From assembly GCA_000306725.1 (NCBI GenBank), contig CP003083.1:682001-746000 (forward strand): a stretch of DNA of 64,000 bases, written 5' to 3'. The DNA is from Methanolobus psychrophilus R15. Lineage in GTDB: Archaea; Halobacteriota; Methanosarcinia; Methanosarcinales; Methanosarcinaceae. The notes beneath the pieces are model-generated. The model had not been told where the DNA came from, did no database searches, and saw only the letters and a list, made by a program, of their open reading frames with translations. How positions within the stretch are numbered: the stretch's first letter is position 1; each line of letters begins with the position of its first letter. Shown in pieces: positions 2,861 to 64,000 of the stretch. The position numbers and the translations under genes are program-made.

Positions 2861-3323
2861 TTTCGGTACTCTTTGAATTAAAATATAATTATTGGCCAGC
2901 TCCATGGAGAGCATATCAAAACGATATCAACAAATCACAACGCCACAATCATTATCGATACGTGGAATTGCATTTGGAAACATTGCTGACTTTGTTTGTC
3001 ACATGGATATAGAAGTTTTCTGTGACTCTTATGAACTATAAGTATACGAATCTGGGTGTTAAAAAGACATCGCTACCATTTCCAATGGTTAAAAGTAATT
3101 GTAGCAGGCTGTAGCAGGCCAGATATTCACGACCCCTGCGCAATTATACGCTACCTACAGGCAGCTTAATTATAGCAAAGGTCGCGGGAGCAACTGTCCT
3201 GATGGCTACATTCCTCTGCGGGAACAGAAACGAAAAAGACATATAAATGAAATGTAACAATACGTCATAACTGAAATATCTTTATATGGTAAACGCGACA
3301 TATACCCAAGAGAGTGTGGGCAC
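2861..3323. other. Divergent intergenic region
   Basis: About 460 bases between the slipin and the sugar-nucleotide operon. I see no gene. It holds a small hairpin (CCATT-TCC-AATGG near 3075), the direct repeat GTAGCAGGC x2 near 3100-3120, and near its right end the TATA-like element of the rightward operon. Confidence 0.5.
3279..3290 (+). promoter_or_regulatory. TATA-like element of the diacetamido-sugar operon
   Basis: TCTTTATATGGT lies about 35-45 bases before the ATG at 3324, leaving a short leader. No strong ribosome binding site is seen before that ATG. Confidence 0.4.
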
Positions 3324-55027: not shown

Positions 55028-55125
55028 CACAGATTTACACCGATTAACACGGATTACGGAAAAACAATAGTTCTCAGAATCTTTTTGGACCAAATCGGTG
55101 TAAATCAGCGTTAATCCGTGTGTGG
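55028..55125. repeat. Long imperfect inverted repeat (mini-element)
   Basis: Arm 1 at 55028-55057 contains GATTTACACCGATTAACACG. The complementary arm at 55092-55125 reads AATCGGTGTAAATC...GTTAATCCGTGTG. It is the second such element in the window (compare 42013). The rest of 54975-55300 holds a TATA-like ACATATATAG near 55243 for the next operon. Confidence 0.6.
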
Positions 55126-56840: not shown

Positions 56841-58535
56841 ATGACCGGATCTACCGAAAGAATGACAGGAGCCAGAGCCCTCATCGAGTGCCTGTACAGG
56901 GAAGGAGTTGATACCATCTTCGGATACCCCGGAGGAGTTCTGCTCCCTATATACGATGAACTGTACAGTTCCAACATCCGCCACATACTGGTAAGGCACG
57001 AGCAGGCCGCCGCACATGCAGCGGAGGGGTATGCACGGGCCACTGGCAAGACAGGTGTCTGCCTTGCAACCTCAGGACCAGGAGCAACCAATCTGGTCAC
57101 AGGCATAGCGAACGCATACATGGATTCCATACCCATGGTAGCACTTACCGGGCAGGTGCCCAGTTCAATGATAGGTAACGACGCGTTCCAGGAAGCTAAC
57201 ATCACGGGCATAACCATGCCCATTACAAAGCACAACTACCTTGTACAGGATGTCAAGGAACTGCCAAGGATCATCAAAGAGGCTTTCCACATCGCATCCA
57301 CCGGGAGGCCCGGACCTGTACTTGTTGACCTGCCCAAGGACATTACAACAGATATGATCGATTTCTATTACCCGGACAAGGTGGAACTGAGAGGCTACAA
57401 CCCCACATATCAGGGAAATCTCCAGCAGATCAAGAAAGCCGCCGTAGAGATAGAGAGATCTTCAAAACCTGTGATATATGCAGGCGGAGGAGTGATCAGC
57501 GCAAATGCTGCTGCTGAACTGAAAAAACTTGCCGAGAAGATCCAGGCACCTGTGACCACAACCCTCACCGGCATGGGGGGTTTCCCTGGAAACCATCCCC
57601 TGTTCATCGGAATGCCGGGCATGCACGGCACAAAGTATGCGAATTACGCCATCCAGGAATCAGATCTGCTGATCGCTGTGGGTGTAAGGTTCGATGACAG
57701 GGTCACAGGTAAAATAAAATCCTTTGCCTCGAATGCAAAGATAATCCACATTGACATCGACCCTGCAGAGATATCAAAGAACGTGAAGGTCGACATACCC
57801 ATTGTAGGGGATGCAAAGTGGATACTTTCCCACATCATGAAGTACACAGGGAAATCCCAGTCAGAGGAATGGCTGGAAAAGATAGAAGGATGGAAGAAGC
57901 AATATCCCCTCCACTACATGGAACCTGCCGGGGACGAGATCAAGCCCCAGTATATCGTCGAGCAGATCAATGCAGTATGCCCCGATGCCATCGTAGTCAC
58001 AGAGGTCGGACAGCACCAGATGTGGGCTGCCCAGTATTTCAAATACACAGAGCCTAGGACCTTCATATCCTCAGGCGGGCTCGGGACCATGGGCTACGGG
58101 TTCCCTGCCGCCATAGGCGCAAAGGTAGCCAGGCCTGACAAGGTGGTCATCGATGTTTCAGGCGACGGTTCCTTCCAGATGAACTCGCAGGAGATGGCGA
58201 CCATCGTGCAGAACAATATCCCTGTCATCATTGCCATATTCAACAACGGATTCCTGGGCATGGTCAGGCAGTGGCAGGAGATATTCTACGGTAAGAGGTA
58301 TTCCTCTACCTGTATAAGAGACAGCGTCGACTTTGTCAAGCTTGCCGAAGCGTACGGTGCCCTGGGAATAAGGGCAACAAAACGTGATGAGGTCCGCCCT
58401 GCTATTGAAAAGGCCATCGCATCAGGCAGACCCACCCTTATTGACTTCATAGTTGAGTGCGAGGAAAATGTTTCACCCATGGTCCCGGCTGGTGCTGCTA
58501 TCAATGAAATACTTGACCTGGAGAGGAAAGAATGA
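56841..58535 (+). CDS. ilvB: Acetolactate synthase, large catalytic subunit
   Basis: 564 residues, three-domain ThDP enzyme. Catalytic Glu54 in [27 protein letters not shown], the FAD-binding middle domain (about 190-340; [11 protein letters not shown]) and the ThDP motif [16 protein letters not shown]...NN. It condenses two pyruvates, or pyruvate and 2-oxobutyrate, the first step to valine and isoleucine. Its stop overlaps ilvN by four bases (ATGA). Confidence 0.95.
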
Positions 58536-59023
58536 GGCACACACTTTCAGTTCTGGTTGAGAACAGGCATGGGGTACTCGCAAGGGTCGCAGGCATGTTC
58601 GCAAGGAGAGGATATAACATTGACAGCCTGACTGTCGGGGTCACAGAAGACCCCACCATTTCCCGCATGACAATTGTGGTCAGGGGAGATGACCAAGTCC
58701 TCGAGCAGGTCACAAAACAGCTCAACAAGCTCATCGATGTCATCCGTGTCAGCGACCTTAAAGCAGAAGATACCGTTGAGAGGGAAATGGCACTGTTCAA
58801 AGTGAGTTCGGATGTCAACAACAGGTCCGAGATCATGCAGATAGTGGACATATTCCGCGCAAGGATAATCGACGTGGCTCCAAAGTCAATGATCGTGGAA
58901 GTGACGGGCGACGAAACCAAGATAGAGGCAATAGAGCAGCTCCTGCGTCCTTTCGGGATAAAGGAAATGGTCAGGACCGGCAAGGTCGCCCTGAGAAGAG
59001 GGGCGAAAGGTGTTTCAAGCTGA
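58532..59023 (+). CDS. ilvN: Acetolactate synthase, small regulatory subunit
   Basis: 163 residues: N-terminal ACT domain ([31 protein letters not shown], about 2-75) and the C-terminal ALS small-subunit domain ([10 protein letters not shown] to MVRTGKVAL). It binds valine and activates or inhibits IlvB. Translationally coupled to ilvB. Confidence 0.95.
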
Positions 59024-59100
59024 AAGCACAGTTAACACCATATTTTTATTTACGGATAAGATTCATTCATATAAATATTCACATAAAGAGGTACTAGATA

Positions 59101-60108
59101 ATGGCACAGATGTTCTACGATAATGATGCAGACCTTACTGCACTGAAAGGGAAGAAAATAGCAGTTATGGGTTATGGAAGCCAGGGGCACGCCCAGGCAC
59201 AGAATCTTCATGACTCCGGCCTTGACGTGGTCGTGGGCTTAAGAAAGGGCAGCAAGCGCTGGAAACAGGCCGAGGATGATGGCCTTAAGGTCATGACAGT
59301 GGCAGATGCAGCAAAAGCTGCAGACATCATACAGATACTCCTGCCTGACGAGACACAGTCCCAGGTATATTACAGCGAGATCGAGCCAGGACTTGAAGCT
59401 GGGAATGCCATTGTGTTCTCACATGGATTCAACATCCATTACAACCAGATAGTGCCCCAGAAGGACATTGACGTCTACATGGTCGCACCAAAGAGCCCCG
59501 GGCACCTGGTCAGAAGAACCTACAGGGAAGGCGCAGGAGTCCCCGGACTTATCGCAGTTTACCAGGATGCCACAGGCAATGCAAAGAACCTTGCACTTGC
59601 ACACGCAAAGGGTGTCGGATGCACACGTGCCGGAGTATACGAGACAAGCTTCCGAGAGGAAACCGAGACCGATCTCTTTGGAGAGCAGGTCGACCTGTGT
59701 GGTGGAGTAGCCTCACTTATCAAGATGTCATTTGAAGTGCTGACCGAGGCAGGATACCAGCCTGAAATGGCATACTTTGAGACATGCCACGAGCTCAAGC
59801 TCATTATCGACCTTATCTACGAGGGCGGGCTTGAGAAGATGTGGTACTCCGTTTCCAACACTGCAGAATACGGCGGCATGACAGTGGGACCTAAGGTCAT
59901 TAACGAACTGTCCAGGGAAGCCATGTACGATGCATTGGAAAGGATCCAGAACGGAGAATTTGCCCGTGAGTTCGTGCTTGAAGGCAGGGCGAACAGGCCT
60001 GTGCTCACAGCCATGGAAAGGATGGACAGGGAACACCCCGTGGAAATCATCGGCAAGCAGATCAGAGCAAAGATGCCCTGGCTCAACAGCGGACTTAACG
60101 AAAAGTAG
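59101..60108 (+). CDS. ilvC: Ketol-acid reductoisomerase
   Basis: 335 residues, class I short form. NADP motif [17 protein letters not shown] (24-40), [20 protein letters not shown], the metal site [14 protein letters not shown] and [11 protein letters not shown]-type [15 protein letters not shown], all present. It converts acetolactate to dihydroxyisovalerate. An 80-base gap after ilvN contains ATATAAATATT (about 59070-59080) and AGAGGT before the ATG, so it may also be transcribed on its own. Confidence 0.95.
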
Positions 60109-60173
60109 GCCTTCAGCCTGCATCTATTTCTATTTTTGATCTTAAAACATTGACCATTAACCGGAGGTTTGCA

Positions 60174-60698
60174 ATGCCAGGAACTATCGAGACGATTCTA
60201 TCAAGACGCAGCATACGGGAATTCACGCAAGCAAAGGTCCCAAGGGAAGACATCACCACCATCCTCAACGCAGGCAGATGGGCACCTTCGGGACTTAACA
60301 ACCAGCCATGGAAATTCATAGTCATCCAGCAGAAAGAGACAATGGAAAAGATGGCCGCGTGCACTCATTACAGCAAGGTCGTAAGCAATGCACCCCTGCT
60401 AATAGCTGTGTACCTTGATCGGGACACAATGTACAACCGGACAAAGGACCTGCAGGCCGTGGGCGCTGCCATACAGAATATGCTGCTTGCCTGCTGCGAG
60501 CTGGGGCTTGGAGCGGTCTGGCTTGGAGAGATATTGAACAACAAAGATAAAGTTAACTTGATTCTTAGTTGTCCCGAATCCATGGAGCTTATGGCCGTGC
60601 TTGCCATAGGGTATCCGGGAGAAAAAAATGCCAAATCCTCAAGAAAGCACATAAAAGATATCTGCTACGAAGAAAAGTATGCAGAAGAATGGAAGTAA
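60174..60698 (+). CDS. Nitroreductase family FMN oxidoreductase
   Basis: 174 residues from MPGTIETILSRRSIREF. The upstream in-frame ATG at 60150 is less likely because GGAGG sits eight bases before 60174. FMN-binding RRSIREF, AGRWAPSGLNNQPWKF and the GLGAVWLGEI loop are typical. It uses NAD(P)H to reduce nitro or quinone compounds or has another flavin role. Substrate cannot be told. It follows ilvC by 66 bases. Confidence 0.88.
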   Translation: MPGTIETILSRRSIREFTQAKVPREDITTILNAGRWAPSGLNNQPWKFIVIQQKETMEKMAACTHYSKVVSNAPLLIAVYLDRDTMYNRTKDLQAVGAAIQNMLLACCELGLGAVWLGEILNNKDKVNLILSCPESMELMAVLAIGYPGEKNAKSSRKHIKDICYEEKYAEEWK

Positions 60699-60713
60699 AA
60701 TATATGGAGGCTA

Positions 60714-60827
60714 GGAGACGAAGACAATGATTGTGGAGAAAGGAGGTATTTTTTTCGCAGACCCAACCAAAGAAGGGTTATGATTGCGATTTATTTCTAT
60801 TGTGTAGTATGGACAGTCTTCGTCTCC
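60714..60827. ncRNA. 114-base element with perfect 12-bp terminal inverted repeats (structured RNA or mini-transposon)
   Basis: GGAGACGAAGAC (60714-60725) and GTCTTCGTCTCC (60816-60827) pair without mismatch around 90 bases. Inside lies a possible 18-codon frame (60727-60783, MIVEKGGIFFADPTKEGL) with GGAG nine bases before it, and a small AACC/GGTT hairpin. No transposase or terminator T-run adjoins. Cannot be assigned to a known RNA family by eye. Confidence 0.4.
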
Positions 60828-60919
60828 AAATCATAGAATGTGTTCCATATATTTAAGTTTTTTTCAAATTTGGAGTAATACAAGATTGTTTGATTTAATG
60901 CTAAATCAAATTTGATTGA

Positions 60920-63253
60920 TTAATCCTTTTTTAACCTTCTGGAGACACACTGCCGGTTTATACACAACTCCCTTGCATCCTTATCTTTTTCCTTTATCCC
61001 CAGTTTCTTCCAGCCGCACTGCTCGCACTCACCGGCGATCGTCAGTTTGCCTTCTTTTGGAAGGGATTGCGTAAACCCGCACTTCTGGGTACATGCCAGA
61101 AAACGGGTATCCTTCATGGCAAGAATGAACATCGATCCCTCACATTTAGGGCAGGTACCTACGACATCTGGCGGGAAGCAAGCCTTCTCAAGCTCGCACG
61201 TAAAACACGGACCTATACCCACCGACCAGTAATACTTTGTACCCACTTTCAGGACAGCGATTCCCGACTTGTTGCACTGCTTCGACCTGGCTATTACAAG
61301 AGCACCCTCCTTAGGAAGCGGATAAGTCTTCCTGCAATCCGGATAACCGCTGCAGCCCACGAACCTGCCCTTGTCGGTCTTGACTATACGTAGCATCCGG
61401 CCACATTCAGGGCACTGGCCGATAAAGTTCTTCTTGTCAGCAGCAACCTGCTCATCGGTGATCGTCCCGGCCATTTTCCGGACTATCTGCTCCCTGTTTG
61501 TGATCAGATGTGAATACATATCCCGGATAAGCACGGAGCCCTCTTCAAGCGCACCCTCAAAGCCTTTTTTCCCATCCTCCACATCCTGGATAAGAGCCTC
61601 AATACGAGACCGGACATCAGGCTTCACAAGTATCGGAACCGTGGAGTCAAGAGCCTCCATAAGCGTAAACCCGGTATCAAGGATAGAGATGGTCTTGCCC
61701 TTTGTTTCAAAATATCCGCGTTTTTTGTTGGTCTCTATATGAGAGGGAGCTGTGGCTTTGGTGCCTATCCCGTATTTGTCCATCAGGGTCAGCAGCTCTG
61801 CCTCTGTCAGCCTTTTGGGAGGGGTTGTCTGTGATTTGGTATTGCTCAGTTTTTTGATCGCTATTTCCTCTTTCACAGCTATATCGGGAAGGAACTTGTC
61901 GTTCTTCGTCTCAAAGGGATATACGGCCAGCCAGCCTGCATTTTTCATTACAGAACCCGTGGCATCGAATATCTCTTCCTTGACGCTTATCTCAAGATGG
62001 GTCTTTTCAAAGATTGCAGGCTGCATGAGGTTGGCGAGGAAATGCCGGGCTACCAGATCATACACTTTCCAGGCATCAGGCATCCTTACACTTTTCTCGA
62101 CATCTGCTTTCGTAGCTGCCCGGATAGGATGTATGGGCGGGTGGTCATGCCCGTCACGTGTCCCGTTCCTGCATGTAATGGGCAGCCTGGAAAGAATGGC
62201 CATCGCATACTCCCGGTATTCCCCCGAAGCAAAGCCCAGGACCTTCATCTTAAAATCGAAATCATCTGCATACTTATTGGTCTCGGTCCTCGGATAGCTG
62301 GTAAAACCCGACAGATAAAGCTGCTCTGCGATCTCAAGGGCATTTTCCGGGCTTATCCCAAGGAACTTGGAAGCACGCTTGAGGAACTCAGTAGTATTAA
62401 GCGGATAAGGAGGACTTGTTATGGATTCCTTTACGCTTTTCTTTGCAAGGATTCCTGTTTTGGAGCCTTTTATACGGCTGAAGATCTCATCGGCCTTTGC
62501 CTTATCGTGGATATGACCACTGCGATGGGTACCCGTAAAATCGATGTTCGAATGGCTAAAGGTCCCCTCTATCTTCCAGAAGTCCTTTGACTTGAAATCA
62601 AGTATAAGTTTTTCACGCTCGTAAACGAACCCGCATGTAGGCGTCTGGCAGGGACCGATGGAAATGATATCCTTGGTACGCGCCCTTTGCTGGACTGCCA
62701 GAGTCAGGAACCGGGTGAAGGCTGCACCCATCTTAAGGTCCAGTATCTGACGTGCCTCTGCAGACATCGCAAGGTTGAAGTCCGGTTCCACAAGATTGCT
62801 AAATGCCTGTCTGATCTCGCTTTCGGACAGCGAGGAAAAACGTGCCCTTTTCACGGGGGACTTTGATACCTTCTCCGCAAGGGATTTGGCCTCAAAGCCA
62901 ATGTTCTCACCTTCCCGGTCAAAGTCACATGCAAGTATTATCTCATCGGCACCTTTTGAAACTAATGCTATGGCTGCTGCATAGGGCTGCTTGGTCACGT
63001 TCTTCACAGGAGGGGTATCAAGAAGCACTGCAGGATCGCAGCCACGCCAGTTGTTTAGTTCGGGAGGAAAATCATATCCCATGATATGACCTGATAGCCC
63101 CATTATCCTCCATTCCTTCCCATCTTTTTTGAAGTCGTATACCGGAATGCCCTCTATTGATGCCCGGTTGAACCCCCCTTCGCTCAGTATACCGGCAATC
63201 TGTGCCGCTGCTTTGTTCTTTTCCGTGAATACGACGATGGACATGCATGCCAT
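60920..63253 (-). CDS. topA: DNA topoisomerase I (type IA, archaeal TopA)
   Basis: 777 residues. Toprim domain with TEKNKAAAQIA (10-20) and the acidic metal triad D110-F-D112-R-E114 followed by GE116. Catalytic Tyr320 in GFTSYPRTETNKY. SIGPCQTPTCG and KYGIGTKATAPSHIE are other active-site strands. The C-terminal ~190 residues carry four cysteine zinc modules (CPECGRMLRIV...CSGYPDC; CFTCELEKAC; CPKC...CTQKC; CEQCGW...C). It relaxes negative supercoils. Start may be at MACM or three codons later. Single gene, leftward. Confidence 0.93.
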   Translation of the reverse strand: MACMSIVVFTEKNKAAAQIAGILSEGGFNRASIEGIPVYDFKKDGKEWRIMGLSGHIMGYDFPPELNNWRGCDPAVLLDTPPVKNVTKQPYAAAIALVSKGADEIILACDFDREGENIGFEAKSLAEKVSKSPVKRARFSSLSESEIRQAFSNLVEPDFNLAMSAEARQILDLKMGAAFTRFLTLAVQQRARTKDIISIGPCQTPTCGFVYEREKLILDFKSKDFWKIEGTFSHSNIDFTGTHRSGHIHDKAKADEIFSRIKGSKTGILAKKSVKESITSPPYPLNTTEFLKRASKFLGISPENALEIAEQLYLSGFTSYPRTETNKYADDFDFKMKVLGFASGEYREYAMAILSRLPITCRNGTRDGHDHPPIHPIRAATKADVEKSVRMPDAWKVYDLVARHFLANLMQPAIFEKTHLEISVKEEIFDATGSVMKNAGWLAVYPFETKNDKFLPDIAVKEEIAIKKLSNTKSQTTPPKRLTEAELLTLMDKYGIGTKATAPSHIETNKKRGYFETKGKTISILDTGFTLMEALDSTVPILVKPDVRSRIEALIQDVEDGKKGFEGALEEGSVLIRDMYSHLITNREQIVRKMAGTITDEQVAADKKNFIGQCPECGRMLRIVKTDKGRFVGCSGYPDCRKTYPLPKEGALVIARSKQCNKSGIAVLKVGTKYYWSVGIGPCFTCELEKACFPPDVVGTCPKCEGSMFILAMKDTRFLACTQKCGFTQSLPKEGKLTIAGECEQCGWKKLGIKEKDKDARELCINRQCVSRRLKKD

Positions 63254-63450: not shown

Positions 63451-64000
63451 TCAGCTTCCTGAGCAGAATGCAATAGGCTGGTTGATGACAGCCCTTAAAG
63501 CAAGGTTTTTGCTTGCATTGAAATCTGCATTTTCTGTATGGCCACATTTCTGACATGAGAATATGCCCTGTTTCTTCCTGTTCATATCTGAAATATGAGT
63601 ACATACCGAACATTGCTTTGATGTATATGCAGGATTCACGAACCTGACAATAACTCCATGTATCCTTGCCTTGTATTCTATGAAGTTTCTCAGTTCGTTG
63701 AATGCCCATTTGACATGTTTGTCCCTATCTGCTTTTCTAACCATTGTCCTTTCACGAATCCCTGTCAGTTCTTCCAGGGCTATCGATCTGTTTGTGTCTT
63801 TAGCAGCTTTGACAATATCTTTGGAGATGACGTGATTTGTATCTTTCTTGAATCTCCTTTCTCTACCACTTACCTTTCTCAGATGCTTTTTTGCTGAATA
63901 AGTTCCAAATGATTGTAGTTTCGACTTTATCCCCGCATACTTTTCCCTTACTTCCTGGCATTTCTCTCCGGAATATATCTTTCCGTCAGAAGTTGCTGCA
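63451..64000 (-). CDS. tnpB: TnpB (IS605/IS1341-type) nuclease, N-terminal part beyond window
   Basis: The last ~180 residues of a TnpB; the frame runs on to the window edge, and an internal ATG at 63744 is not the start. RuvC Glu in SIALEELTGIRERT, zinc ribbon Cys pairs CSVC and CQKC, third catalytic Asp in NADFNASKNLA. Ends AFCSGS. It differs from the tnpB at 43922 in sequence, so it belongs to another subgroup. Whether a tnpA accompanies it cannot be seen. Confidence 0.88.
   Translation of the reverse strand, partial: AATSDGKIYSGEKCQEVREKYAGIKSKLQSFGTYSAKKHLRKVSGRERRFKKDTNHVISKDIVKAAKDTNRSIALEELTGIRERTMVRKADRDKHVKWAFNELRNFIEYKARIHGVIVRFVNPAYTSKQCSVCTHISDMNRKKQGIFSCQKCGHTENADFNASKNLALRAVINQPIAFCSGS

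Follow-up and report, generated by a model that had tools for sequence, protein, structure and literature searches.

A conserved intergenic element of Methanolobus and related methanogens as a probable small RNA gene with a Shine-Dalgarno-complementary motif

The 64,000-nucleotide stretch of Methanolobus psychrophilus R15 analyzed here (the window) contains, between two converging genes, a 114-base element whose ends are perfect inverted repeats. The question is what kind of element this is. An earlier note, made from the letters of the window, offered three options, namely a structured RNA, a leader-peptide-type regulator and a non-autonomous mini-transposon. In this work, we compare the element among related genomes and argue that the first option stands, but with the RNA encoded on the opposite strand to that read in the note, and that the other two do not hold. 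The argument uses what can be read from sequence: conservation, covariation, strand, promoter position, conservation of a motif and its predicted accessibility, and siblings that share the same core.

The locus consists of the following features.

60174..60698, plus strand: nitroreductase-family gene (PF00881, E 4.3e-31), the constant neighbour of the element
60920..63253, minus strand: topA, DNA topoisomerase I (PF01131, E 3.5e-106), upstream of the RNA and on the same strand
60727..60783, plus strand: 18-codon frame of the earlier note, not conserved as a frame

The description given in the note is accurate as far as the letters are concerned: both arms of the 12-bp repeat are exact (GGAGACGAAGAC at 60714-60725 and GTCTTCGTCTCC at 60816-60827) and enclose a spacer of 90 nt, and the element lies between convergent genes whose stops are at 60698 and 60920 and whose identities are supported by Pfam. 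As a chance event, the repeat is only mildly unusual: perfect inverted repeats of 12-mers with a spacer of 30-150 nt are found at 3 places in the window, against a mean of 0.53 (maximum 3) in 30 dinucleotide-type shuffles of the window. The distinguishing feature of this repeat is its conservation.

A 301-base probe run against 60 genomes located this intergenic stretch in many Methanolobus genomes, flanked by nitroreductase and topA in 20 of 20 loci (L002-L021, including the window's own). The model built for the RNA (CM R1) matches in 25 of 27 Methanolobus genomes and in 42 of 111 genomes of the family, including ANME-3. With strict filters across the order, it matches in 42 of 185 genomes, all belonging to this family and distributed over 6 of 27 genera, and no match was found in the order outside the family. 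Among the model-matched loci examined, the nitroreductase gene adjoins the RNA in 22 of 22 and topA was also seen in 16 of 22; note that the 20-locus and 22-locus lists overlap in part and that some of the 22 stretches are cut short. Neither gene was seen in one further stretch, the 23rd, which was assigned to G003, a genome with no model match. When the region downstream of the nitroreductase gene was inspected in named records, the same arrangement was seen in Methanomethylovorans, Methanosalsum and ANME-3 archaea and was not found in records of Methanosarcina and Methanococcoides, with the exception of a record labelled Methanococcoides, EBM-47, which carries a Methanomethylovorans-like copy. 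A laxer search of four genomes of genus g11 (presumed Methanosarcina) gave one weak match (E 0.7), and the viral contigs searched contain no relative of the nitroreductase. Typically, there is one copy of the RNA per matched genome; the exceptions are two genomes with tandem pairs, and the tandem copies are in ANME-3-like genomes (L049:2553-2668 and 3096-3211; G132:C32; G133:C271). In the window genome, a search with the model for a second copy returned only noise (E 2.3).

To describe the arms and the gene that they delimit, we use the following coordinates.

60827 to 60714, minus strand: core of the putative sRNA gene, about 114 nt (CM R1 match at G000:C1:742712-742830(-), E 1.4e-9, the window's own sequence being included in the model)
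60816..60827, minus strand: 5' arm of the terminal helix P1 (12 pairs, covariation)
60714..60725, minus strand: 3' arm of P1 (12 pairs, covariation)

Alignment A1 contains 34 sequences (33 distinct) and was calculated by MAFFT without structure; L043 (ANME-3), whose right arm is degraded, was excluded. In this alignment, changes on both sides are observed in 9 of the 12 pairs of P1, including G-C to U-A, G-C to A-U and C-G to U-A, in separate genera. Standard pairs occupy 94.9% of the 393 cells, compared with a mean of 82.9% in shuffles and 43-56% in slid versions of the helix, and the covariation score is 0.383 compared with 0.174 in shuffles. None of 500 shuffles reaches any of the observed values, although this is not a probability because the shuffles leave relatedness in place. 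RNAalifold independently recovers the same helix. The covarying pairs that the note had proposed to look for in relatives are therefore present, the stem is kept, and P1 provides a conserved secondary structure of the kind that characterizes archaeal trans-acting sRNAs.

The same alignment indicates the strand. Read as minus-strand RNA, P1 contains 25 G-U cells and 5 A-C cells, and reading the plus strand swaps these numbers; the excess of G-U cells points to the minus strand, as does the TATA box found about 31 nt upstream on that strand. Judged from these sequence features, the element is very likely an sRNA gene on the minus strand. The signals around it are as follows.

60850..60857, minus strand: TATA box CTTAAATA, beginning 30 nt upstream of P1
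60891..60910, minus strand: upstream dyad TTTGATTTA-N3-TTAAATCA, putative operator (20 aligned intergenic regions)
60706..60711, minus strand: GCCUCC tail directly 3' of P1 (tail CCUCC in 28 of 43 orthologues)

The promoter was examined in 43 sequences, obtained by adding 11 further model matches to the 34 of A1 and removing 2 duplicates; other model matches were left out. On the RNA strand, at -34..-29 from the helix, the TATA score is 8/8 in 32 of the 43, 7/8 in 10 and 6 in the remaining one; on the opposite (plus) strand, no sequence scores 8/8 and one scores 7/8. The corresponding fractions in shuffles are 1% for a score of 8 and 11% for a score of 7. The element thus appears to have a promoter of its own, as is characteristic of archaeal intergenic sRNAs, and from the position of the TATA box, transcription would be expected to start on the first base of P1 or close to it. 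For comparison, promoters of M. psychrophilus are described as lying about 19-22 nt from the transcription start site (PMC5378194). Upstream of the TATA box, the dyad (TTGATTTA...TAAATCA) is conserved in the genus. It might be the 'cold box' of PMC5378194 or another operator. As a genome-wide operator, however, it was rejected: allowing up to 3 mismatches, it occurs at 14 places per strand compared with 13 for the control, and we claim no regulon. A run of at least five U follows the helix in 19 of 43 sequences. The 3' end is uncertain in the window because this run is absent from the window's own sequence. In some species, the tail CCUCC overlaps the 3' codons of the nitroreductase gene.

These results bear directly on the remaining options of the note. 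A miniature inverted-repeat transposon (MITE) would explain the perfect 12-bp terminal repeats and the length of 114 bp. However, several dispersed copies would then be expected, and the element DNA is single-copy in the 3.07-Mb genome; moreover, its site next to the nitroreductase gene is the same across many species and genera, and its arms show compensatory changes, which together make a transposon scarcely credible. Equally negligible is a plus-strand leader peptide or attenuator that uses the 18-codon frame. GGAGG and ATG do occur in this order on the plus strand, but the frame is not conserved as such: a frameshift disrupts it in L006, a stop truncates it to 10 codons in L007, and the frame of more distant orthologues bears no relation to it; the helix, by contrast, is retained. 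In addition, a correctly placed TATA box is absent from the plus strand, and there is no co-directional gene downstream for a leader to control, since topA faces the frame.

The region enclosed by P1 is divided into two parts, which are a folded 5' half and a 3' half for which almost no folding is predicted.

60755..60789, minus strand: inner hairpin P2 in the 5' half, with GGGUC at 60760-60764 (fold of the window RNA)
60735..60748, minus strand: UACCUCC-UUU-CUCC, predicted to be unpaired and complementary to Shine-Dalgarno sequences (motif conservation and predicted accessibility)

At the position of P2, relatives have a hairpin with z below -1 in 25 of 42 sequences (mean z -1.0, with a cut point that split this hairpin in the window group). 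The fold is no better than that of shuffles in the Methanomethylovorans group, and the sequence of P2 varies by subgroup, for example GACCUAUUU/AAAUGGGUC and UGCUUGAA/UUCAGGCA. The C-rich motif is better conserved. In the loop, CCUCC occurs in 38 of 43 sequences (shuffles, mean 8.3, maximum 16), ACCUCC in 35 of 43 (mean 2.7, maximum 9) and CUCC in 41 of 43 (mean 22.2, maximum 29), so that five lack CCUCC and two lack even CUCC there; these counts lean slightly toward the motif because the model that detected the 11 added sequences itself contains the sequence of the loop. The predicted unpaired probability averages 0.90 over the motif and 0.61 over the rest of the loop. An unpaired segment complementary to ribosome-binding sites is thus predicted in most of these RNAs. 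The UACCUCC/CUCC motif reproduces the anti-Shine-Dalgarno sequence at the end of 16S rRNA.

The same core, GGGUC...UACCUCC...CUCC, is also present within different stems at two other intergenic loci. The pattern TACCTCCN{2,10}CTCC occurs 11 times in the genome, compared with 9 for a reversed-pattern control; 8 of the occurrences are inside open frames and 3 are intergenic, and in all three of the latter GGGTC lies 6-30 nt before the core. These three are the RNA described here and the loci that we call siblings B (G000:C1:2917258) and C (G000:C1:758736). Sibling B (G000:C1:2917210-2917330; L173, L196) is a stem-loop 3' of mtaB (PF12176) with the loop GGGUCAC...UCUACCUCCAACUCCAC. BLAST detects it in 23 of 27 Methanolobus genomes (E below 1e-9), and its closing helix is its own and nearly invariant (alignment of 19, with one reverse-strand duplicate, L186-); it is possibly a 3'UTR-derived sRNA linked to methanol metabolism. 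Sibling C (G000:C1:758627-758876; L199, L208) is intergenic, has a TATA box, is present in 10 of 27 genomes of the genus and carries 1 to 3 tandem UACCUCC repeats (ACCUCC motif), the number of which varies by species. Both siblings resemble the RNA described here in having a stem that encloses an open loop with GGGUC followed by UACCUCC and CUCC; in contrast, their stems and neighbours differ, and no promoter is identified for B. The three may share a common ancestor or may have arrived at this loop by convergence. Two further loci from a search with the GGGTC-core pattern (six matches at five places) were judged to be chance matches: L194 overlaps the start of an opposite-strand open frame, and L195 is inside frames.

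Taken as a whole, we read the locus, with reasonable confidence, as a minus-strand intergenic sRNA gene whose product probably blocks ribosome-binding sites in trans; judging from the sequence of the loop, we lean slightly toward Shine-Dalgarno pairing as its main mode of action. Under this mechanism, the gene would use an archaeal promoter of its own, with the centre of the TATA box about 27 nt upstream of the predicted start, and transcription would begin at 60827 or within a few nucleotides. The RNA would fold into a terminal helix of about 12 bp that encloses a hairpin on the 5' side and, on the 3' side, an unpaired stretch rich in C, which would display one or two UACCUCC/CUCC motifs. These motifs would pair with the GGAGG Shine-Dalgarno sequences of mRNAs and block their ribosome-binding sites. 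Transcription, target pairing and the effect on translation are steps that we infer. The nitroreductase gene has GGAGGT 5 nt before its ATG, and this type of Shine-Dalgarno sequence is therefore in use. However, CCUCC is a short motif with a weak form in some species, and scanning the 64-kb window for duplexes revealed no convincing ribosome-binding-site target, the best non-self sites being mostly within genes or away from gene starts. A crude count finds Shine-Dalgarno-like motifs before 8 of 48 naive open reading frames of the window, which says little because many of these frames are spurious, but which still gives no support for the mechanism.

Alternatively, the C-rich loop of the same sRNA might bind an RNA-binding protein, as a sponge or scaffold, instead of acting as an antisense to ribosome-binding sites. 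The conserved motif is short, repeated and recurrent in three RNAs with different stems, as a protein-binding site might be, and the window scan revealed no mRNA target; yet ACCUCC is the exact complement of GGAGGU, and the sRNAs of a related methanogen are described as acting by ribosome-binding-site antisense (PMC5867862), so that we regard protein binding as unlikely. The constancy of the nitroreductase neighbour noted above, compared with the less regular topA, raises another alternative, in which the RNA overlaps the 3' end of the convergent nitroreductase mRNA and controls its stability in cis, as an antisense or bidirectional 3' element. The tail of the RNA covers the last nitroreductase codons in several species, as this alternative would suggest. 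Nevertheless, it is quite improbable, since the helix pairs better as minus-strand RNA with its own promoter, the siblings adjoin other genes, and antisense to the neighbour leaves the conserved loop unexplained. Coding of a short minus-strand peptide, by a small mRNA or a dual-function RNA, has a precedent in the sRNA154 of M. mazei, for which a 20-aa frame is described (PMC11456600). In fact, many species of one Methanolobus subgroup (L008, L011, L012, L016 and others) retain a frame (MGQADLLPPIYLQF...). However, it is absent in the window species, whose RNA is without any ATG or GTG, and the frames in other genera are unrelated; we therefore consider a peptide very improbable.

The preferred reading, an sRNA that masks ribosome-binding sites, would place the RNA beside known intergenic trans-acting sRNAs of M. 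mazei, which are described as masking such sites (PMC5867862, PMC3510493): sRNA154 acts by loop 2 on glnA2 and sRNA162 by its linker on MM2441 (PMC5867862, PMC11456600, PMC3510493), and sRNA41 masks the ribosome-binding site of the ACDS operon (PMC5867862). The three are like the RNA described here in being intergenic, with their own promoter, a stable stem and an unpaired segment. This RNA differs in lying beside the nitroreductase gene, the comparison being made by description. Moreover, sRNA154 is described as highly conserved in Methanosarcina (PMC5867862) and BLAST found sRNA162 in only two further Methanosarcina (PMC3510493), whereas this RNA gave just one weak match (E 0.7) in the four g11 genomes and was not seen beside the nitroreductase gene in the Methanosarcina records. 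In M. psychrophilus R15 itself, one report describes 195 intergenic sRNAs, including nine cold-induced ones with a 'cold box', which is located upstream of the promoter and accompanied by induction at 8 C (PMC5378194). This set comes from the same genus, and its list may include the RNA described here. With E values up to 1 allowed, no Rfam 15 family matches window positions 58000-63000, and none matches 8 loci including orthologues and siblings. Among the main texts searched, no paper was found that describes an RNA at this locus, although the supplementary list of 195 sRNAs may contain the transcript.

The structure or mechanism has been worked out for few archaeal sRNAs. The RNA described here is conserved in six genera, including methylotrophic methanogens and ANME-3 methane oxidisers. 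A calibrated model of it now exists, together with an assigned strand, a predicted promoter and a small set of bases that can be tested. To judge from its siblings, these organisms may use Shine-Dalgarno mimicry by RNA repeatedly. As a tentative and still doubtful generalization, an archaeal RNA family might exist in which different stems display an iterated UACCUCC, a mimic of the 16S anti-Shine-Dalgarno sequence, in a species-variable number of repeats that compete with the ribosome. If true, the family would act as adjustable ribosome competitors for Shine-Dalgarno sites, selecting the mRNAs to be translated according to condition, such as cold, and sibling B, located behind mtaB, would tie this competition to methanol metabolism.

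Several minor observations concern the surroundings of the element and the loci found on the way. An outer inverted repeat is also present (60693-60708 / 60844-60859). It was rejected as a part of the RNA and taken as coincidental because its right arm coincides with the TATA-box region of the minus-strand promoter and conservation of its left arm ends with the nearest relatives. A BLAST overlap pointed to G000:C1:301768 as a target, but what lies there is not a ribosome-binding site: it is an intergenic hairpin whose loop contains CCUCC. The same lead revealed sibling B in G006 and G024. This minus-strand hairpin (G000:C1:301768-301793; L165) has the form GGGAAA...UACCUCC...UUUCCC and is also present in G022 and G009. 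Elsewhere in the window, a long imperfect inverted repeat at 55030-55125, with arms like ACACAGATTTACACCGATTAACACGGATT, resembles an interspersed repeat. Finally, a minus-strand open frame at 63451-63999 runs off the end of the window and, by a motif, resembles the C-terminal part of a TnpB-type protein.
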